Source: Neelides folsomi (taxonomy: Eukaryota; Arthropoda; Collembola; Neelipleona; Neelidae). Taken from it: 64,000 nucleotides of DNA. The notes under the pieces were generated by a model, which ran no database searches, was not told where the DNA came from, and was given only the letters and a program-made list of their open reading frames with translations. A program made the position numbers and the translations under genes. The stretch covers positions 1 to 64,000 of the forward strand of contig JAQGBZ010000026.1 in assembly GCA_034687125.1 (NCBI GenBank). Direction: 5' to 3'. Positions 5,093 through 58,657 of this stretch are shown piece by piece. Position 1 is the first letter of the stretch. Every line of letters starts with the position of its first letter.

Positions 5093-6177
5093 ATGGATAA
5101 CGTTAAACGCGATCAAGAAATCAACGTGGACGAGATGAAGTTTAAAGTTGAAGTTGAAGAAAGTGATGGAAGTGGAATGGACAATGTCCAGCTGGCTCCT
5201 TTACGTCCTGTCCTACTTGACAAAGTTGAGGAAACGGCTGAAGAAGGAAACGAAGATCCACCGCGACTCGTTTTGGTCAATATTGAAAGTCCCTCTGTGA
5301 CTTCTGATCTTCTCCGTCACTCAATCTCACTTGTTAATTACAATGGTGAGTTGATGAGCGTTGAAGATTCAATTGGACAAGAGGGAATGGTTGAGAATTC
5401 TTCTAAATATCGTTCTCACCACCAACAACAACATCAGCAGCAGCAACACCAACACCAACAACAAATTTCTGTCATTCGAGCCCCTCCGGAAGAATTTCTT
5501 TATCCGCAAATGCCTCCTGTGCATTCTCACATCCATGCTGGATTTTTGGGAGATGAAATGAATTATTCGCCTGTGGCTATTGAGAAAATGCCAAATCCTC
5601 ACCGCCACTGGAGAATTGCAACTCAAACTGAAAAAGGTGACTACATTAAAATTCATATAACAATTTGTGTATAATTATGGATTAAAGAGATTAATGTCAT
5701 CTAATTGGATTCAAAGTTCTTTTTTCAGATTACAAAAAGAGTGCCTGTGACCGTGAGCGGACTCGAATGCGTGACATGAACAGAGCATTTGAACTTCTCC
5801 GCCAGCGTCTTCCATATGCAAAGCCACCGGGAAAGAAATTGTCCAAGATTGAATCTCTTCGGTTGGCAATTAAATACATTAAGCATTTGCAATATTTGCT
5901 GGACGTCTCGTCTCCGGTCGTTGGGCCACCACCGAATTATTACCACCCGGCAGAACCACACTTTTTCCCAGGGTTTAATGGAAGTCAAAGTATTTTCTGT
6001 CCTCCCCCATATCCTTCGCAGTCTCTGCATCAACTTCCGCATATGGTTGACCAAGGGCCAGAATTTGCTCATCAGCAGATCTCCAATGAATTCCCGGTCA
6101 TTCATGGACCATTTCCATCTCATTCAGCTATGCCTTTATCTGAACATCACGAATATTTCCAAAATTCTTCCAACTAA
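5093..6177 (+). CDS. bHLH transcription factor, Sage/Mesp-like
   Basis: A DNA-binding transcription factor expected to act in the nucleus as a dimer on E-boxes. Exons 5093-5636 and 5729-6177 join in phase to give 330 residues. The start ATG opens the only long frame here. The N-terminal half is acidic and carries a His/Gln-rich run near residues 105-125. The bHLH domain begins just after the intron: basic region [19 protein letters not shown], loop containing PPGKKLSK, helix 2 [15 protein letters not shown]. The C-terminal part is rich in Pro, His and Ser. As I remember it, the basic region and helix 2 are closest to arthropod Sage and to Mesp proteins; the exact orthology is an inference. 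An AATAAA polyadenylation signal lies at 6448-6453. Confidence 0.85.
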
Positions 6178-10225: not shown

Positions 10226-17451
<7,226 letters not shown>

Positions 17452-22228: not shown

Positions 22229-23714
22229 TCTTTACTTTGTTTATAATAATTTTTATTTTCAATTCAGTGAGAAATTATCTTTAATAATATTCCCGTTTTG
22301 ATACTTGTTATTCTTTCTTGAATTAATTCTCGCTTATATACATTTTAATTACCTTGTGCTAATAATCCCGTGGCATCGTTCCTTGATCTCAAAATGTCAT
22401 TGAATGAGAACAATGTAAGAATGGTGAAGTATCATTTCCCAGTCTTCCAAAATCCCATATTTGTATCTATTTCATTCAACCTTAAATATTTACATTTTAC
22501 AATCCTTTCAATTAACCATAAAACATTAAGGTCTAGTAAAAACAAAAGTATTTCTTTCTATTGATTCAACAGTACGAATTTGTTCAAGTGTGGTTTAGCG
22601 TACAAGATACAAAACTTAACTTTATATCAAATTAATTTAATTTAATTTGGCTAACTACTCACTTTCAGTTGTTTTCTCTATTTGAACGCGATTGATACTC
22701 CAATATTTACTCTACCTGTAAAATGCATGCAAATATACCATAAGCATACAATAATACGGTCAACATAATATCGTCGAGTACAGTAAAGTGGAATATGCTT
22801 TAACTAATTATATTAACTTAATAGGATCGTGGATTCATCCTAAATCTTAAGTATCATTATTTCATTAATAATTGAGTTAAATCAAATAACGGAACATTTA
22901 ATGTATAATTAAAATGCCCACTAACGATAAGTACAAATTGTAAGTAACAGCACTCAGCAAAGTTTCGCATACATGAATGTATTTATCAGAGAGCCGTTCC
23001 TTTTATTGCGAGAAATCATTTAAAGACTTGAGTATTTTATGCGCATTTAGACCTGTAATTAATTATCTTTTTATTAATTTGTTTGACCCTTGCGGGTCTC
23101 CAAAAATTGCCGTAGTCGGAGGTATTTCACTCCAACTAGGCGGGGTATTGGGTAAAGTTTTCAACTAGCAATAATCGCACCTCGGTATAACCTCACTGGT
23201 TACGATATTGCCACTGCGCAAAGCTTAATTCACAACACACACCCCTTGCCTTATCCATCCCGACTTCCTCTTAGCATACCTGGCCCCCACTTCTCTTTAA
23301 ATACACACTCTCAAATAATTAACTAATGTACTTTAGATGAAGCTTATTAAATAAAATGATATTTTTACTATTAGAATTTGCATTCATGGAATGGTTAATG
23401 ATTATAGTTAATGCATAATTAATATTTTATTACAATTTAAAGAGCAGGGTTTAAGATAGTGCATGGTATAAGTTTAGCTTTGCCCCTCTTTCTTTCGCTA
23501 ACTCTCCGATCCCAATACCCTTCCGATACAATGAAGTTGAATTAAGTCAATGAACATTGGGAAATTTTCAATATTTAATATCAAGAAAAATTTTGCATTA
23601 TAATGACGACGATCAATTGTTTTATTAATGATATTATAAGAGTAATAAATGACTAAATGTAAATAAATTAAACATTAATTTGGATTTGGAGATAATTATA
23701 AAATACATTTAATT
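22229..23714. other. Intergenic region, upstream of the small secreted gene
   Basis: Mostly AT-rich. A segment at about 23085-23290 is richer in G+C and contains a GACCC/GGGTC hairpin (23087-23100) and a second imperfect hairpin around 23114-23137. It may be regulatory. I see no coding exon. Confidence 0.4.
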
Positions 23715-26170: not shown

Positions 26171-32027
<5,857 letters not shown>

Positions 32028-35439: not shown

Positions 35440-35480
35440 TTATTTTAGAGTTCCAAAATTTGCGCTTGCCATCCTCCCAC
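35440..35480 (-). CDS. how: Candidate third alternative last exon of the how gene
   Basis: On the minus strand a strong acceptor (pyrimidine-rich TTTTGTCTTTTCTG before CACTTTAG, AG at 35482-35481) opens a 41-nt exon. Joined to the donor after 38563 it keeps phase and adds GGRMASANFGTLK before a TAA stop. ACTAAC, an ideal branch site and the core of a Quaking-binding site, lies 37-42 nt upstream (35522-35517). I do not recognise the peptide, but Quaking genes are known to make three alternative tails. Support comes from splice signals and phase only; the predicted protein would be 376 residues. Confidence 0.4.
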
Positions 35481-36292
35481 CTAAAGTGTTACAGAAAAGA
35501 CAAAACCACATAATTTGTTAGTTTTTAAATATTATGCAATTGAGTAAATAATGTAAATACTTAAAAAGAGTATTTCCGTAATTTAACAATTGAGTGCGGG
35601 GTTAGTCTACAGGAGAGAGTTTAAACTGATTTTTGGTACAAATGAATACAAAAATGACAAAAAGGGACTAATAAAAATTTAACCAATAAAATGATTTTGA
35701 AATAATAATAATTGTTGAAAGCCATTCAATTACAAATACATTTATAATATAAAATTATAAATTTTCAAACTTTGTTTATAAAAACGATAATATTGAATGA
35801 AATAAAGTGTAATAAATAAAATAATTGACATTGTCACAAACTTCATTGAAAAAGTTTTTTTTTAAAAAAAACTATACAAATTAAATTGTATTGAAAAATA
35901 TTCATGCCAAAAAATGAAAAATTCTCTCACTGTATCTAAAAAATACTAAAAAAAATATAAGTGTGTAAAAAATAACAAATACGACAACAAACAACGTAAA
36001 ATGTAAATAAAAAGCAGTACGAACATAAAAGCAAAAAAGCTCTGTAAATTTTAAATTGAAAATATACAAATTGAATAACAAAATATAATTGGATTAAACA
36101 ACTGTACGAACAAAACAAAACAAGTTAATTAAATAAATAAAAGGGGGGAGAGAGTACTTCAAGCAGAAACTGATAAATTTGGTATTAATGAAAAAGAAAT
36201 GTGTAAGTAACTTATTAATTTCGTTTATTTCGAGAGAGTTTCACCTGGCTAGAGTAGTAGTAGAAGGTCTTGTTGGTTTTTTTGGTTAGCGT

Positions 36293-36384
36293 TTAGTGGA
36301 GGAGGGAAGCAGAAGGATCCGATTTAGGAAGGTAGGGATGGTCCCTCAGCCCCGCCAATCTCCGCACGCCACTCATCTTACCAA
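36293..36384 (-). CDS. how: Quaking-5/How(L)-like alternative last exon
   Basis: A 92-nt exon encodes VGKMSGVRRLAGLRDHPYL and ten further residues before TAA. The core V-G-x-x-x-x-x-R-R-L-A-x-x-R-D/E-H-P-Y is what I remember of the nuclear long tail of insect How (RRLATNREHPYQR) and of QKI-5 (VRRHDMRVHPYQR), which carries the nuclear localisation signal. It joins in phase to the donor after 38563, giving a 393-residue isoform. The acceptor (TTTATTTGTGAAG) has a poor pyrimidine tract, as expected of a regulated exon. Confidence 0.75.
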
Positions 36385-38542
36385 CTTCACAAATAAACCC
36401 AATTAATAAAATGATTAATCTCTCTCTCCCCAACATTCACTTATCCTCCAACTAATGGTATTAATGGTATTAGGGCCCAGTCGGTTAAATACGGATTAAA
36501 TTTAGTAAATAGTAATTAAAGTAATTATTGTTCCTCAAACTCCCCAAACTTTCTTCCCCATATTCATTCACATTCTTTTTGACCAATTCTTTTCATGAGC
36601 TTAATTAAATCCCAATCGTATAATTTTAAATGTAATTTCATTTTCGATTATAATTAATTAAACTTCATTTAAACTTCATAATAACATCAATGTTGAATCT
36701 TATAAATTGTAATGATTACACCAATAAATAGAAATTTAAACTAATCAAAATTGAGCTTTTCAAAAGTGTGTGTGTGTATACGTACGAGTTTAAACTTCTA
36801 AGAAATTTTATAAAATTAACTTAAATTTTAAATCAGAAGCATATTTATGTAAAAGTATAATTATAGCTAAACTTACTTTATGTACAATTTATAAACACTA
36901 GCAATTTAAGAATTGAGAACGCGGAGTTCATTTTTAAAGCTCTGCCAATCACTCGAGAAATATTTTTTAAAAAATCTCGCAACTGTTCACTTCAATTTGT
37001 ATTTAAAGCACCTATTAAGAATACATTCACTCCAAGTGAAATGCACTTTTTATAAAGTTCAACAGTACATTTAACTCCATTATATAGTAAAAAAATGCGA
37101 GGTCAAATGAGGGCATATGGGGTGAGGGGAAGGTCAACTTTTTCCATTCGACCTCCAAACCCTCTCATTTTTGCCTTACTGCTTCAATACACATTTCCTT
37201 TTTGGAAAAATCCTACATTAAATTAATGTTTATAGAGTATACATTCGCTACAAAAAAATGATTCTAAAACTGTAATATTTTTATATAAAATATGAGAAGT
37301 AAAAATAAGGAAGAGGAAACTTTTAACTTTTAAATTCTTACAAGCTATTTATCTTTAAAAAGCTTCCTTATTAAATTTATAATTTATTTTCTAGTTTATA
37401 ATAATAAAACTCTTAAAAATATATTTAAATCTATTGAAGAGAGAATAAATATAAATGTTCCTTAATTAATTTTAAAGTGAGCCTAAATAGGAAGAATTCA
37501 TAGAATTCGTGGAGTAATTAAGTAGACATTTCATATAATTACATATGTATTTATATTTAAATAGAAATACATTTAAATCTTCAAGGAGTAGAGTTGTACC
37601 AAATCATCCCCACTCTTTCTGAAATTTTCATAGTATTTTGATTAAAAGTACAAATTAAAAATATGGAAGAAGAGTTCTTGTAATGTTCAAAAAGAATGTC
37701 TGTAGAATTGTAATAAATGAAGAATCTTTCTTTTTTATATCTTAATATGAGAGAAATATAGAAAAGTAAAACTGCATTTGAGAAATTTTGTAAATATATC
37801 AAAGATTTGATAAAAAGAATCTCAAGCAACTTTGGCTCCAACTTGGATTGGAAGGTCATTTGAACTTCTTTTCAAAAATAAAAATAAAAAACGGGAATAA
37901 TGAATAATTGAAAAGACATTACATGTAATAAATAATTCAAGAGACTTTCACTTAAATCAGAGAGATTCTCAAGACATATTTAATAATAAAAAGAATTGAA
38001 TAAATATTGAAATTGGGCTCCAAAGTCTTCTCTTTAATTTAAAAGTTGAAATAAACAAGTCAACTCATATTGAATTTCCTAATATTTAACCCATAGTACT
38101 AAATATTGCAAAAAACTAAAAAGTCAGGATTTTTAAAGCTCTTTGTTCCTCTCCAAAAAATCTTCTCCAAAGAGTGAATGTTTGACTCTCAATGTAAACT
38201 GTGAGTAAAATATTGAGTTTCCTATACTTTTTTGTTCTTCAACTTGTGACCCAGGAAGTTGGTAATAAAAATCAGTCGAAAAATAATTGTTGTGTGTAAT
38301 AATTCTCCAGCAAATCGGTTCAAGTAACAAAGTAAGTGTACAACCGAGCAGTGTAACTAATTATCCTACCTCCTTACATAAACATACTCTCTACATCTCT
38401 ACAATTATAATAATAAAATCCAAATTAAATTATGAGCTCTTCCTACTGAATTCCTTCAGAGGGAGGTCTTGGGAGGAAATTGAATAGTTTCTAAATTGTG
38501 GGACAATCAAGTTGGTCAGAGGCCGGTTGGTAACGAGTAAAT
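36385..38542 (-). other. Alternative intron / 3' UTR of the short how isoform
   Basis: AT-rich DNA between the read-through stop (38543) and the Quaking-5-like exon. It is an intron for the long isoform and probably 3' UTR for the short one. A (GT)6 run lies at 36766-36777. No further exon is recognised. Confidence 0.5.
36766..36777. repeat. (GT)6 microsatellite
   Basis: Short dinucleotide run in the how 3' region. Confidence 0.8.
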
Positions 38543-41500
38543 CTATCTGGCGAATAACCCACCATGTTCAGGGGGATATTCTGCGAGGGAGAGGTACGTG
38601 GCGTAGTCGGCCGTGGTGTACGGAGATGCAGCGTAGAGGAGGCTGTCCGTCGATGACGTGAGGAGCGGCGGTGGACCTCCGGCCGCTGCAGCTGCGGCCG
38701 CCGCTGCTGCTGAGTGATTCAACCCGTTGCTCAACCGGTGCGGGGAAATAATGAGAGGAGCACCTGTATTCAAAAGACTCAAGTCAACCGTAAACCTCAA
38801 GGAAGAATTTAAGCTCATGGGACTTTTAAGGCGTAAGAAATGGGAAAAAAGTATATTTGAGTAAAACCGTAGAAACCTAGTGGTGTGGCGGCTCTGAGGG
38901 CCGTAAGTGGCATTTGTGGTGAGACCAACTGAGCAGCGGCAGCGTTCACAGCGGCATTATTCCTCGACTCCTTTGAGTCTCTATATGTCCCATTAATTAT
39001 GGCCAATTCCATAAGCTGACGTTTCTTCAGCTCATCTTCACCCTCAGCCTGGAAATCATAGAAAAAAAGAAATAATAAAAAATTGATCAAAAATTGAGCA
39101 AATAAACAAATCCTTAATTGTAATAAAATTAAATTATAATACTAAATATGCAAGTATAAAATAATACAAAGTTCATTCTTCTATAGGATTCATAAGATTC
39201 AAATCTTCTAATCTCAAGTGAGGTTGAGTCTATAAAAGAGCTGAAGGAGCATGTTTAAGAGGATCAATAGGGATGTCACGGCCTTTGAATAAATTAGACA
39301 AATTCACCAAGACTGAATTGTGAACTCATCCAATGAAGAGTCTCTTATTATGGAAAACTCCTTTGGAAGATTATTATGGAGAAAAAGATTCCCCTTTTCG
39401 AGGGTTGAGAAGGGAGGTTGCCTTTTACGGGCATCTCCCATGTAGGCGAGTCTTCTACCTGATTCATAAACTCGTTCTCCAATTCCCTCATGTGTACATT
39501 TCTACATGACTCGGATGGTATTGGCCAAATAGCTAACCATATGCTGCAGAGTAAGAAGACACTTTTGGGTCTTTCTCCACAATAATTAACTTATAGATCT
39601 CTGCACAATGGGCGACAAACAAGTTTGAAATAATGAGTTTTGCCCTTCTCAATTCCTCTCTTTTATCATAACATGAGACGACGCGACGAAGTGGAGACTT
39701 TGGAAAAAAACAAACCTTCCAACTCCACTTTGGAACCTTAAAAGTTAATGGAATTGGCAATGATATACAGATTCCCATATATATTTATAATAATAATCCG
39801 CCCTTTTTTCTCCATCTCCGCTTTGGATCAGTTTTATAAAAGAGTCGAGTGCCAAAATCAGATCCTGCAGAATCTCTTCCCTCTAATCAATTTTAATATA
39901 TGAAACTGTACAGACATAGGGAGAAGAATCCAAGAGACGATGTTGAAACATAATAAACTTGAATCACTTCTACCATAAATAAATCTGATGCGTCTTTCAC
40001 TTTTCCCTTCAAATCCCTCGCATAATTACCAATTAAAACTTAAATTGTAGTAAATAAAAACTTTATAAAAACATCAATGTTTTAAAACTTTAAACTAAAA
40101 CTGAAACTTACTCAAATAAACAAAAGATAAAGTATGAATAGAATGTTGATAGCTATTTGTTATATGGTAGGTATATGGAATATGGAATAAAGTAAGAAGG
40201 ATATAAAACTTCATCCCATTGTGCAAAATTTCTAAATCCACTCAATTTTGAATCCATGAAACGAATCAAATTGAAATATTGAATATTATAGAGAATATGA
40301 AAATCATATTCTCTATAATATAGATCATATTCTGTATAATAGTGCTTAAATTCAATTTACCGGTACGAGAAGTTTTTTCACTTCTTCCACGGCCCTTTGA
40401 AGTTTCATCTTTCCTCTGTTCTCCGTATCTTCTGCTGTGATTAACACATGGAGCTCATCATTCAAATGCTCCCAATTCGGTTTTCCCCGATTCTGCTCCT
40501 CCTACATGGACAATAAATCAAATTAAATATGAAACTCATGTGAAAATGGTCATTTCAAGCTTTTCAGAATACAATATATGATATATGAGTAAGAAGACAC
40601 AAGTCGAATTCAGCCCATCCAATCCACTTATATCGACCATTTAAATTTTAAAAATTGAAATTCATAAAGAAGGAAGCGGCAGCAAAACTTCTATTTATGT
40701 AAATATTGAATTTTTAATTGTAAAATTAATATAATAAAGACTCATTGGCATCATATTTTGAAGAATTAAATTGAATCATTATAAGCTGTTATTTAGACAT
40801 TCTAATTAATATTCCGTAATAAACATTAACAATAAATTAGGGTTATATTCCGATGAATGAATGTAGATTGGAAAAGGAGCCCTTTATGGAGTGTCGTGTG
40901 AAGTCGGATAATGGGAAGGTGGAAAGGAAACATAAATTTGTTCCCAATGTCCTCGACTTCCTCCTTCAATTCCCCATATATTTGCATTTGCAGTTAAGTA
41001 AGAAGAGGACGCGTGGAAGGTTGGAGGAGGAGGCGGAATGCCTATATTCGGTTCGGACGAAAATAACTCCCGCCCCGAACCTCCGGCTCTCTTCTCCCAA
41101 CAACATGGGAAAGACACCACACACACTCCCGTAAATTTCCTAAACTCCTTCGGCTCCTTATTTAATATCCCCCATTTCCTTAGAATAACCCAGACTAAAC
41201 CTGCAGAATCCAATCCTCATTCATCCCTCTCAATTTTTTACCAAACAGCTCCGGTTCCCACTCCAGAGGAATCACATCATTCCCCACATTCAATCTTAAA
41301 GACTCCTTTCGAACCTCCCTCATTTCCCTTAATAAACTCCCATAACTCAATCGTCTACTCTTTAATTAAAAGACATTAAACTAGATTAAACCTTAAAAAG
41401 TTTTTTTTATGAAATTCTCATCAGCTTTTCATCATCTTATAACATTTTTGAACTACAATACAAAATGATTCAGATATTTTATATCTAATCAATGCATCGT

Positions 41501-44500
41501 AAAAAAAGATACATCTCTCTTCCTCCTTCTCCCTAATAAGAGCTTATAAAAACGGGGTTCGATAATAAGGGCAAATGTCGAACTTCAGGAACTGCTTAAA
41601 GACATTTTCAAAGATTTTTTTCAATAAGAAGTCAAGAAATGTCAAATAGGGGAGAATAATGATGGGAATAAAAAGGAAGAACGTGTAAAAGGATTTTAAG
41701 AGAGAAAATGCCTTAAAAATAGAATTTTGTTTTCCTTCCACCCGCCTGCCGTAAGGCGAGTCAAAACAAGGGAGGGGAGCCAAAAAGGAAGATTCTCCTT
41801 CAACAAACTTTAAAAACCTCCCCGAGTGAGGGGGGAAGGTGACTACAGGTTTATTCCCCCCACCCCTCCTTCACTTGACTCCCACTGAAAGATGATGGAG
41901 GCAAGTGCTATGACCTACGGGGTAAAAATAGAGCCACACATCCAAACTCCCCTAACAGATTCGCACATCATCTCATTGGGTGACGGAGGGGCCTTTGAAT
42001 ATTTTTAAAAACCCTTTTCTCATATCTTTCAAATGACGCTAATCCTTGATTAATTAAGTTTCCCAATGAAGCAATTCATATTAAATGTATCCCAAAAATC
42101 TCACATTAAGAGCCATTTAAATTAATTCCCTCAGTTGACATTATTATTCTTTCCTATCGTAAATTCCTCAAAGTAGTAATAATAGGACAAAAAATAAAAA
42201 ATGGTCATTAATGGCTCAGACTTCAATTTAAAGTAGTTGAAATATTCCTTCCCATGTGCTCTCCCGAGTGAGCACATTTGTAAAACTGAGAAAAAAATGG
42301 GATCTTGAATAAATGGAGAGAAGTAGGCGTTGGGATTCGACTTCCTCTACTCGCACTTAAACGAAAAACAAATGGTTATGTCTGTTTATTTATCTCCCTC
42401 CAACTTTACCTTCTTCTTGTCCCGCATGGAGCCTTTGCCTCTCACCATGATCTTACAGCCAGTCTCTTGTTCCAACTGCTTCGCCGTCATTCCCCGCGGC
42501 CCAAGAATCCGCCCGACAAAATTAAACTATAAAAAATCATACTCATTTTTAAAAATCATTCACAGGCTTCAATCATGTCAGGGAGAAATGTCCCCGGAAA
42601 TGAATAATTTATAACTAATGGGCATAAGCGGTTGAGGGTGACACTTACATCTGGGTGTTCTTTAACTGGTACGTAGACTTTCTCTGAGAGGGTGACAACT
42701 GGACCGCATGGCTCGGGAAGTTCTAATGGTTCCGTCTTCACTCCTGACAGATGAAATAAGTTGCTCCGAACACGTGAGATTTCTGCAATTGAAAAACAAA
42801 TTGATCAAGACTAAGTAAAATGACAGCCATTCATTCATCACTATAAATAATATAAAGTTTTGCCCAATCCGCACTTCAAAACCATTCGAAATTCCATCCA
42901 CTTTCATATAAGAAATACCTCGTATAAAATAAACAATATTTTTCCTTTTATCAAACGAACGCATGACATTGTAGGAAATTAAACGCATAAAATAGAAAAC
43001 CAAATGGCCGTCCACGATCTCAGTCGAAAATCATTTCAAATACGGTTTATTTAAGGGAAAAGTCATTTAATAATTTAATGTCTCTATGTACAGGAGAACG
43101 CCGAGCTGGTGAAATAAAGGGAGATTCTCATAAATTGAGGATGATATGAGAGCATGAGTTGGCCAGTGGTTAGAAGGAGTGATGAATGGATTAAAAGAGT
43201 TTTTGAATGTAGGACAAATGCTCACAACTTCCAAACTGCATATTTCCCTACACATACGGTCATATGTACGTGTAGTAAAAGGAAATATTAAATGATAATG
43301 TGAATCTCTGTTCTATTATTCCATCCATCCCTCCCATATGGAGGAAGGTTATCAGGGTGAAAGCGAACAGATTTCACTTTCCATCAAATCTCCCATATGA
43401 CTCCGTCCACAACCAAAAGGGTAAACTAATAAAGAACTCATTTATAATTCCGCATGGGAAGATGTAAAAAACATTCGCTTATCACAAATTGTTTTTCCCA
43501 TCTCCTCAATTACCGCTCAACATGAGGAAAAGTAATTAGGGCGCTCAATTTATAAAACTTGACTTTCATTTCCATTCAAGACGTTGACTACCCTCCTTAA
43601 TTTAAATGATACACACTAGTTAAATAATCAAATCAACCCACTTGAACTCTTAATTAAGAATTAAGAAAAATACTCGAAAATTAACATATAAGTCATTTAA
43701 TACAAAATATAATCAAACTTTCAAAGTAGGAAGTAAGTAGGAAAAGTATATCTGCACTTTCTTTACTATAAAAATAATTCAATTAAATCTCAACCGGCAT
43801 TCCACAATCTCATAAAGAATAGCCGCTAGGAAAATCATTAGACCGACTTAATAAGAACTGTTAAAACCCTAATAAGAATCTGTCAAAAACGATTTTCCAC
43901 CGGCTGAGTGGCTCTTTTCACTCCACCGCCGAACAGGATAGAAATTAGGTAAAATGGCTGGAGGAAATTGGAAGACGTTTGTAATGAGAAACTCGGTCAA
44001 ATCTCATCTTCACATTTATGAAAATGATCTCCCAAATGAGGAAGATGCTAATAAAGATTTAATCGAAAGCCGGAACATTCTTCGAGACCACTATAATTAA
44101 TAAAATGAGTTTAAGCCACAATTCCCCGTTCCCCATCACCCTCCGAGGAAAGAATAGAGAGTGGGCGTTTAATTTTATAAGATCAAATCTCATTCCTTCA
44201 AAATCTTCCTCCAACTAAATGAAGGAAAAAAGAAGACTTGCAGAATAATTAATGTCCAAATAACCAATTCCCTAATAAACCCCCACATACGAGATGAGAG
44301 AAACGGATGAATTATGCTTCATGTAAGTTTGGTCTCCAGCCCCTTGAACCTCATTCGAATATTAATCATTCCACCCTATTTGTATTTCTCCTATGTGTCT
44401 CAATTCCTCTTTCGGCGCTCCCATTCATTAGCTCTATCTCCCCATAGATTCATTTCCAAATCCAAACACTCCCTACTTACATATATTTTAATATGTAAAA

Positions 44501-56500: not shown

Positions 56501-58657
56501 TGCTATTGAAGGGAATAAAAGAATCCACCTGTCCATTTGTCCTCTTCTCCTATTCAATCGGTCCCTTAAAGTCTGTACGTCTCTTCACCTGTCGAAGTGG
56601 CTGGGGCTTGCCCATGTTTAGACAACCTTCCACCCCAAAGGACCAAAAGAGGAATAGACCATAACCACTCCTCAACACACACACAATCGGATCACAAATC
56701 AAAAAAAGTGTAACCATAAAACCCCCTTCCTTTTCTGCCTCTCTTGAAGACCAAATAAGAATAGCCATCATCTCAAACATGCGGCATTCCTCTTCATTCC
56801 TCCTTATCTAATTCAACTTCCAAACTCCATAAATTTAATATTTCTTTCTAATGCGAGGCAAATAAAAAAAACTTTTCCCCGCCTCTTGTGCCGATCTTGG
56901 CTCAAATGCCTCATTTTAATTCTTTCCCTACGAACAATAATAAATCTTTGTCCTCGTATATTGATTTTATGGAGAATCCTTTTAAAACCTTTTAACAACT
57001 CGCCCAAGTGTTTCTCCATTTGAAGATCCGCTTTCCAAACATTGGGAAAAAATGATAAGATAGTCAAACAATTGAAATTGTAAAAATATCATTGGAGAAA
57101 ATTTTCTAATAATGCTACTAAAAATCTAAATATTTAATTCTAAACAATAAATCATGATAGAGAGGAACTTGACAGATCCCACGCATTCCTTTTAAATTCC
57201 TCAATCACTATTATTATTGAACGCTTTCCTCGCTTGCCCTACCGTTGATTGAACTTTGATTTATTATCAAATAGGAAAAGGGTTGATTGTCCCATTCGTT
57301 AAATTCGCCATTTGACTTTTAGCATACAGTGTATGTACAGGTACTCTAAGTACATGTATTAAAATAACGCTTACAAATGAAAGAGACTTTAACCCAAGAC
57401 GGGACTAATGAAAATAAATAGCAATTGTTTAATTCTTCACCTGAGCATTCACTTCAAGTTCTAAGCATTGTACTCGTAGTAAAAAGAGACAAATAAAGTT
57501 CTTATAGCATGTTTGTTATTCGGCCGACAAATAATCGCAAAACATGTATAGACAAATACTCATTGATTCTTTCGATGACTTAAGGAGTGAATAATGGAGT
57601 AAAAAGAGGTAAAAAATGTGTGTAAAGTGGCATCAACTGCGGTTTGAGGTCCCATTGTGATATTGTGTGAGCTTAGCGGTTCTCCCCTCCATTGTCCTTC
57701 CGGGGCTCTTGTTGTATTGGAGAGATTTGGGAATGTTGTGAAGATGAGCCCTTCTGCAACAACTCTTCCTCTCCTCCTTTCCTTCGACCATCTCTCTCTT
57801 GTCCTACACCCTTGAGCCGAAACCCAATTCTTTTGTCCAAGGTTCCACTGGCTGGCTCATTTTTTGTAGCGGAGAAAATTGAATCAAATCTACCATACCC
57901 TTTCCCCACTAAACTCTTACGGAGGAATCCTCCAGGAAGTAAAAAGTCTCAACAACTATTGTACTACAACTTGACATACAAAAAAGTACAATTTCCAACA
58001 AATGCCAAATTAATTGTTTGAATGTGTAAAAATGCTCAACAACTGTCCGACTTTTCCACAATTTATTGTTAAGTTAAATTGAGTCATTTCATTCCCTGAT
58101 GCGTTTTTTCACCCCAAATCCCATCATTCTCCTAACAAGTCAATTTTAATAAATAAGCCTGGATAAATATTTGGCCGACGTCAAAACAAAATGTCAAATT
58201 TGCAAAAATGATTTGTTCAAAAATGAAGCCAGAAGGAGGAATTTCCAGAGTGGCGGCGGAGATTGGGCAAATCTCATCATGTGTTGTGTATGTACATAAG
58301 TATAAATAAAGGATCAAAGTAGGCCACGTTACCTTCATCGAGGATCCGCTCGACGTGGAGAAACAAATTAGGGAAGATGGCAAGCTGCTTCTTATCTTTG
58401 ATGAGCTGGGCGAGGTAATCGGCCATATTCTGCGTATTGTTGGCGGTCGAGGAGTTGCTGCTGTTGCTGCTCCCGTGATGGTTGGCACTCGAGTTGATGA
58501 GCATGAGCTGGGACGCCCCGGACCCGCCGTGATGGTTATTCGTGAGAGAGTTGAGGGCGAGGCCGCAGTTTCCCACCAGACTATTCATCGTCGTTGCAAT
58601 GGAGGGAGATGTGACAAGAGCTACTGAGGTCACTCCGAGTCCGTCACTCATTTTCAT
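38543..58657 (-). CDS. how: Held out wings/Quaking STAR-family RNA-binding protein
   Basis: A KH-domain protein that binds ACUAAY-type sites and controls splicing, stability and translation of target mRNAs, for example in muscle and glia. Minus-strand coding exons: 58657-58333, 42782-42649, 42526-42410, 40501-40361, 39048-38877, 38763-38543; phases agree and the read-through form has 369 residues. After a Ser/Asn/His-rich N-terminus, QUA1 is [15 protein letters not shown]...[15 protein letters not shown]. The KH domain follows ([29 protein letters not shown] with its GPRG loop, [16 protein letters not shown]), then [18 protein letters not shown], and QUA2 ([25 protein letters not shown]). The tail has a ten-alanine run, then [14 protein letters not shown]. 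This version ends GGLFAR-stop by reading through the donor after 38563. The start ATG is the first in the exon. Alternative ends are listed separately. Confidence 0.95.
38561..38566 (-). promoter_or_regulatory. Alternative 5' splice site choosing how C-termini
   Basis: The sequence CATG then GTGGGT puts a GT donor at 38562-38561. Used, it splits the glycine codon and joins to 36384 or 35480; ignored, translation reads on for GGLFAR and stops at 38543. Confidence 0.65.
39049..40360 (-). other. how intron between the two exons carrying the KH end and QUA2
   Basis: 1.3-kb intron with a normal GTAAAT donor and TTTCCAG acceptor. Apart from the hairpin near the donor, I see no feature. The open frame at 39533-39778 has no family resemblance. 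Confidence 0.7.
40284..40340 (-). repeat. Intronic hairpin with a competing third arm in the how gene
   Basis: 40284-40300 is the exact reverse complement of 40304-40320 (17 bp, 3-nt loop). The right arm is repeated at 40324-40340 with one base changed, so the left arm could pair with either. The structure sits about 20-77 nt downstream of the donor of the exon 40501-40361. Confidence 0.85.
40502..42409 (-). other. how intron following the KH exon
   Basis: 1.9-kb intron. The region 40850-41280 is richer in G+C and contains overlapping open frames on both strands (40853-41134 plus, 40884-41213 minus) that resemble nothing known and are probably chance. No repeat or RNA gene is recognised. Confidence 0.6.
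52918..52931. repeat. (CA)n microsatellite
   Basis: Short CA run inside the large how intron, preceded by interrupted CA repeats from about 52895. Confidence 0.8.
53157..53172. repeat. (AT)8 microsatellite
   Basis: Eight AT units inside the large how intron. Confidence 0.9.

Follow-up and report, generated by a model that had tools for sequence, protein, structure and literature searches.

Which C-termini can the STAR protein of a springtail carry, and what might govern the choice between them? The question is raised by a how/Quaking gene of Neelides folsomi (Collembola, Neelidae), which lies on the minus strand of contig JAQGBZ010000026.1 (assembly GCA_034687125.1), within the stretch of 64,000 nucleotides (nt) that was analysed and is called the window below. 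A preliminary description of this DNA had proposed that three alternative ends of the gene all arise from one splice donor at position 38563. The analysis indicates that the locus is probably the 3′ end of an arthropod how/Quaking gene at which a single STAR protein receives different C-termini from alternative last exons.

The identity of the gene, as already named in the preliminary description, was confirmed: that it is the orthologue of how/Quaking, with QUA1, KH and QUA2 regions in the predicted product, is firmly supported by sequence comparison. Six coding exons (A to F, 58657-38563, minus strand) join in frame and have GT and AG at their borders. Exon A (58333..58657), for which an ATG was chosen as the start although the frame is open further 5′, encodes the N-terminal region and the start of QUA1, with a STAR_dimer match at 58334-58438. 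Exon B (42649..42782) contains the end of QUA1 and the start of the KH domain, which continues through exons C (42410..42526) and D (40361..40501), while exon E (38877..39048) encodes QUA2 and a linker. Exon F (38563..38763) is the last common coding exon, and ends in ...SLAEYPPEH plus the first base of a Gly or Val codon. Residues 74-124 of the product correspond to Pfam STAR_dimer, the QUA1 dimer region (3.6e-23), its single KH domain to KH-I_KHDC4-BBP (2.9e-20, also Pfam), and the STAR region matched Quaking in the PDB (4jvh, 1.1e-85), followed by GLD-1 (1.7e-80), with the next STAR relatives at 2e-31 or weaker. A second STAR gene was considered and rejected, STAR_dimer being found at just one place in the 75.1-megabase assembly.

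All three ends were recovered at the positions that had been proposed for them. The last base of exon F, 38563, is followed by GTGGGT, and this donor (ATG/GTGGGT) scored second among the 266 GT sites within 38700-33000, using splice-site matrices not trained on this genome. If the donor is left unused, translation would run on through 38543..38562 (minus strand), adding GGLFAR before a TAG, and the result would be a candidate short form, cytoplasmic and How(S)-like. The nearest poly(A)-type signals of this read-through form are ATTAAA at 38038 and AATAAA at 37388, so that its 3′ untranslated region (3′UTR) would measure at least 0.5 kilobases (kb). Joining exon F to an acceptor at 36384 gives a 30-residue tail, VGKMSGVRRLAGLRDHPYLPKSDPSASLLH, with the stop codon at 36295-36293, and joining it to an acceptor at 35480 gives a tail of 13 residues, GGRMASANFGTLK, also followed by a stop. 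The read-through end consists precisely in the donor not being used, so that the claim of one common donor does not apply to it.

The comparison that had been drawn with the alternative ends of vertebrate and insect relatives is apt and is documented in the literature (PMC12868882, PMC3315481, PMC10881146). Drosophila HOW(L) is described there as nuclear, and HOW(S), which lacks the C-terminal nuclear signal, as mostly cytoplasmic (PMC12868882, PMC3315481), whereas QKI has three tails, QKI-5, QKI-6 and QKI-7 (PMC10881146, PMC4873024). The springtail locus resembles Drosophila how in its layout, with one STAR gene, alternative C-termini, and apparently one form with and one without a C-terminal nuclear signal; a tail of the 35480 type is not described in the accessible portions of PMC12868882 and PMC3315481. 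In vertebrate QKI, a short stretch with EYP closes the common part ahead of the tails, printed for the mouse protein as ...SILEYPIEPSGVL at residue 311 (PMC4873024), and ...SLAEYPPEH occupies the same place here, the likeness (EYP-x-E) having been noted by eye.

The preliminary description had also counted it as evidence that all three ends keep phase. This argument carries no weight, because a last exon has no later frame to match and any acceptor will keep phase. When the 854 AGs from 38520 to 20000 were each read from donor 38563, every one yielded some tail (median 11 residues), and 44% of these tails had 13 residues or more. Phase being uninformative, the tails were therefore judged by their likeness to known ones, their coding character and their splice signals. 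Acceptors were ranked among 241 sites with matrices that were likewise not trained on this genome, either by their pyrimidine tract or by tract and branch point together, and a control set of 869 AGs with their tails was taken from the 15-kb intron of the how gene itself. Short tails of such a kind are expected to be disordered.

The tail at 36384 (36293..36384, minus strand), called L-type here, would provide the nuclear, How(L)-like form when donor 38563 is joined to it. Aligned with the QKI-5 peptide, printed as GAVATKVRRHDMRVHPYQR... (PMC8139980), it reached a Smith–Waterman score of 28 (shuffle P 0.015), with VRR and R-x-HPY common to both; after HPY, in contrast, the springtail sequence reads LPKSDPSASLLH where that of QKI-5 reads QRIVTADRAATGN, and the overall match is modest. 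In this likeness 36384 ranks third among the 854 AGs, where the unrelated 31726 scores 29 and 36423, which is in the same frame, ties with it, and it is first-equal among the AGs in 38520-33000. The tail is the sole open frame of its three, its coding score of 4.5 bits is matched by 30 of the 869 control tails, and its exon lies inside an island of G+C content (GC) of 0.53-0.57 in surroundings of 0.2-0.35. An L-type tail at 36384 is therefore likely, but it is a diverged one, keeping VRR and R-x-HPY and losing what follows HPY. A separate small island, with GC of up to 0.50, is found at 37101-37190 (minus strand), where the sequence separating the L exon from the read-through end is otherwise AT-rich.

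The strongest acceptor signals were found at the most distal site. Acceptor 35480 is second of the 241 by tract and first when the branch point is included; its score is equalled by 4 of the 869 control AGs and its step in GC by 59, and none of them combines both. The rise in GC after 35480 extends over ~180 nt, to about 35300, well past the stop of the 13-codon tail. An ACTAAC at 35517..35522 (minus strand) is the candidate branch site, with its branch A at a distance of 38 nt from the start of the exon. Another ACTAAC, a motif of both the HOW/QKI and the branch-site type, lies upstream at 35601..35606 (minus strand). The best branch candidates at the five inferred constitutive acceptors read TTGAT, CTGAC, TTAAT, TTGAT and TTGAC, a comparison that is partly circular in that the score itself rewards CTAAC. 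The start of this distal exon, N (35440..35480, minus strand), would supply GT, GGRMASANFGTLK and a stop if joined to exon F, and would be 3′UTR if reached from a donor at 36245. An exon boundary at 35480 is thus likely, and the coding tail there is a candidate. The L and N exons were each found once in the assembly, and their derivation from a repeat was rejected; the 35480 stretch is accordingly not a dispersed repeat by that DNA search, which skips very common words.

Several results weigh against this picture of the locus. The L-type acceptor (GTGAAG/TT) is weak, ranking 86th of 241 by tract and branch point, and its combined score is 1.5, compared with 3.9-14.3 for the five inferred constitutive acceptors. 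Neither the full L protein nor its tail matched Pfam Quaking_NLS (PF16551) at E values of up to 10, and chance six-frame peptides of the window (n=4498) reach a score of 36 against the QKI-5 tail, as against 28 for the L tail. The common C-terminal part did not align significantly with its counterpart in mouse QKI (shuffle P 0.15). The coding score of GGLFAR is slightly negative, and that of the 35480 tail, 0.4 bits, is reached by 203 of the 869 control tails, i.e., the tail is non-coding-like. Finally, a strong enrichment of ACTAAC was considered and rejected, the motif occurring 3 times where 1.65 are expected (P 0.23, 1000 shuffles). A six-frame search of the assembly for Quaking_NLS gave zero candidates, but its control gave no signal either, so that it is uninformative.

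Some of these points would also fit the view that the QKI-5 likeness of the 36384 tail is due to chance and that the real nuclear tail, if there is any, lies elsewhere or has been lost: the acceptor is weak, the Pfam match is missing, and better-scoring chance peptides exist in the window. This view is nevertheless unlikely, as the tail stands in the right place and on the right strand, forms the sole open frame over the GC island, and has no better competitor among the AGs from 38520 to 33000. The weakness of the acceptor is, moreover, what a regulated exon could have. For the Quaking-5-like exon that had been claimed at 36384 there are thus the VRR and R-x-HPY residues and a modest alignment with QKI-5, and against it the acceptor, the Pfam result and the scores of the chance peptides.

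If alternative last exons are indeed used, the part played by the distal one may depend on what lies between the L stop and 35480. The 48 nt after the L stop (36245..36292, minus strand) end in a donor-like CAG/GTGAAA; they hold a GCTAAC, and the L stop codon immediately preceding them is overlapped by an ACTAA. Donor 36245 scores 7.7, fifth of the 266 and like the constitutive donors of exons A-D (7.2-7.8). Because this donor-like site follows the L stop by 48 nt, the L exon (36384-36245) may be internal, with 35480 as its 3′UTR exon. In the strict version of this idea, 35480 would serve as a 3′UTR exon only, and GGRMASANFGTLK would never be made, which can be put forward tentatively. The 48 nt fall inside the limit of nonsense-mediated decay, which is usually 50-55 nt, GC drops sharply just after the donor, and both the non-coding character of the N tail and the raised GC well beyond its stop would be in keeping with untranslated sequence. 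The transcript of the L form could, however, end instead at an AATAAA at 36229, just beyond the donor, and the role of the site is ambiguous, as the same CAG at 36245 reads equally well as a donor (36245) and as a strong acceptor (36244). Skipping of the L exon would in any case still yield the third tail.

A third coding form, with a direct junction of 38563 and 35480 in one tissue or another and with GGRMASANFGTLK as a functional, probably non-nuclear C-terminus, is a reasonable possibility that falls short of being probable. It would draw on the best acceptor of the 241, a CTAAC branch site at a distance of 38 nt and a good donor, and QKI itself has three tails according to the passages cited above. 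Against it stands the coding score of GGRMASANFGTLK, attained by 203 of the 869 control tails, and four tail fragments, two of them from GGRMASANFGTLK, had no printed match in the literature searched. The third coding form and the 3′UTR exon do not exclude each other: if the distal exon is real, it would be a 3′UTR exon after L (through donor 36245), a last exon coding for GGRMASANFGTLK when L is skipped, or both. The lineage-specific third form proposed in the preliminary description is therefore not supported beyond its first-ranked acceptor; its tail does not look coding, and neither the 3′UTR option through 36245-35480 nor the acceptor at 36244 had been considered.

Read as an acceptor, the CAG just discussed (36227..36244, minus strand) ranks second of the 241 and would give the tail GETLSK, followed by a stop. 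A short form could then be made through 36244, instead of or besides the read-through or the 35480 form, and a CTAAC is present 42 nt upstream. This is improbable, since an AG (36248) intervenes between that branch site and the acceptor, GC falls after the site from 0.51 to 0.28, opposite to what is seen at the coding exons, and the site can equally be read as a donor. Further top-ranked acceptors (34655, 36248, 36101, 38467 and others), with tails such as DKYL, AR, VV and DLPLKEFSRKSS, were set aside for lack of further support, which is not a rejection.

How might the choice among the alternative last exons be made? The motif (A/G/U)CUAAC is reported to be enriched in 3′UTRs bound by HOW(S). 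QKI is described as competing with SF1 for ACUAA branch sites, including dual ones in RAI14 (PMC13004596), and self-splicing of QKI is a published precedent (PMC10881146). The springtail locus is similar in that two ACUAAC motifs also precede an alternative acceptor, one of them placed as its branch site; it differs in that the competition was demonstrated for mammalian cells, with exon 11 of RAI14 (PMC13004596), whereas here the motifs are what is seen. ACTAAC pairs within 90 nt are slightly enriched (P 0.041, 1000 shuffles), and a similar value was obtained for three ACTAAC within 920 nt (P 0.037). Self-regulation, in which HOW would itself set the choice of tail because it and SF1 compete for the two ACUAAC sites that precede 35480, is a fair idea, and a weaker part of the scheme than the splice forms themselves. 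The complete model, a three-way switch (perhaps four-way with 36244) that includes the new tail GGRMASANFGTLK and in which HOW opposes SF1 at ACUAAC sites 84 nt apart, so that the dose of nuclear HOW would set the tail, is a long shot.

The how gene has close neighbours in the window. Exons of the largest subunit of an RNA polymerase, with Rpb1 domains 1, 3, 4 and 5 and by eye of Pol III, are found at 26309-32027 (plus strand), and because this gene is convergent, how must end within ~3.3 kb below 35300. A U4 spliceosomal RNA lies at 23086-23225 (minus strand; 124.4 bits, over the full length of the model). Farther away, on the plus strand, 1687-2319, 5695-6174, 11309-11770, 13395-15335 and 16157-16486 contain Piwi, bHLH, protein kinase, PHD finger (below the cut-off) and CNH pieces, of which the kinase and CNH pieces may belong to one gene. 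A 15,157-base mitochondrial contig, on which gene names other than COX1 were assigned by eye, has 11 TGA codons in COX1 and carries tRNA-Leu(taa) between cox1 and cox2, an order that is presumably ancestral for insects and crustaceans.

The gene at this locus is, then, an ordinary orthologue of how/Quaking, in which an L-type tail and a distal exon are likely and the extra coding end is unproven. The choice of the Quaking C-terminus decides between nuclear and cytoplasmic work. Finding the same layout in this arthropod, together with a strong acceptor whose branch site is of the ACUAAC type, could make it possible to ask whether self-control through competition with SF1 predates the split between insects and vertebrates.

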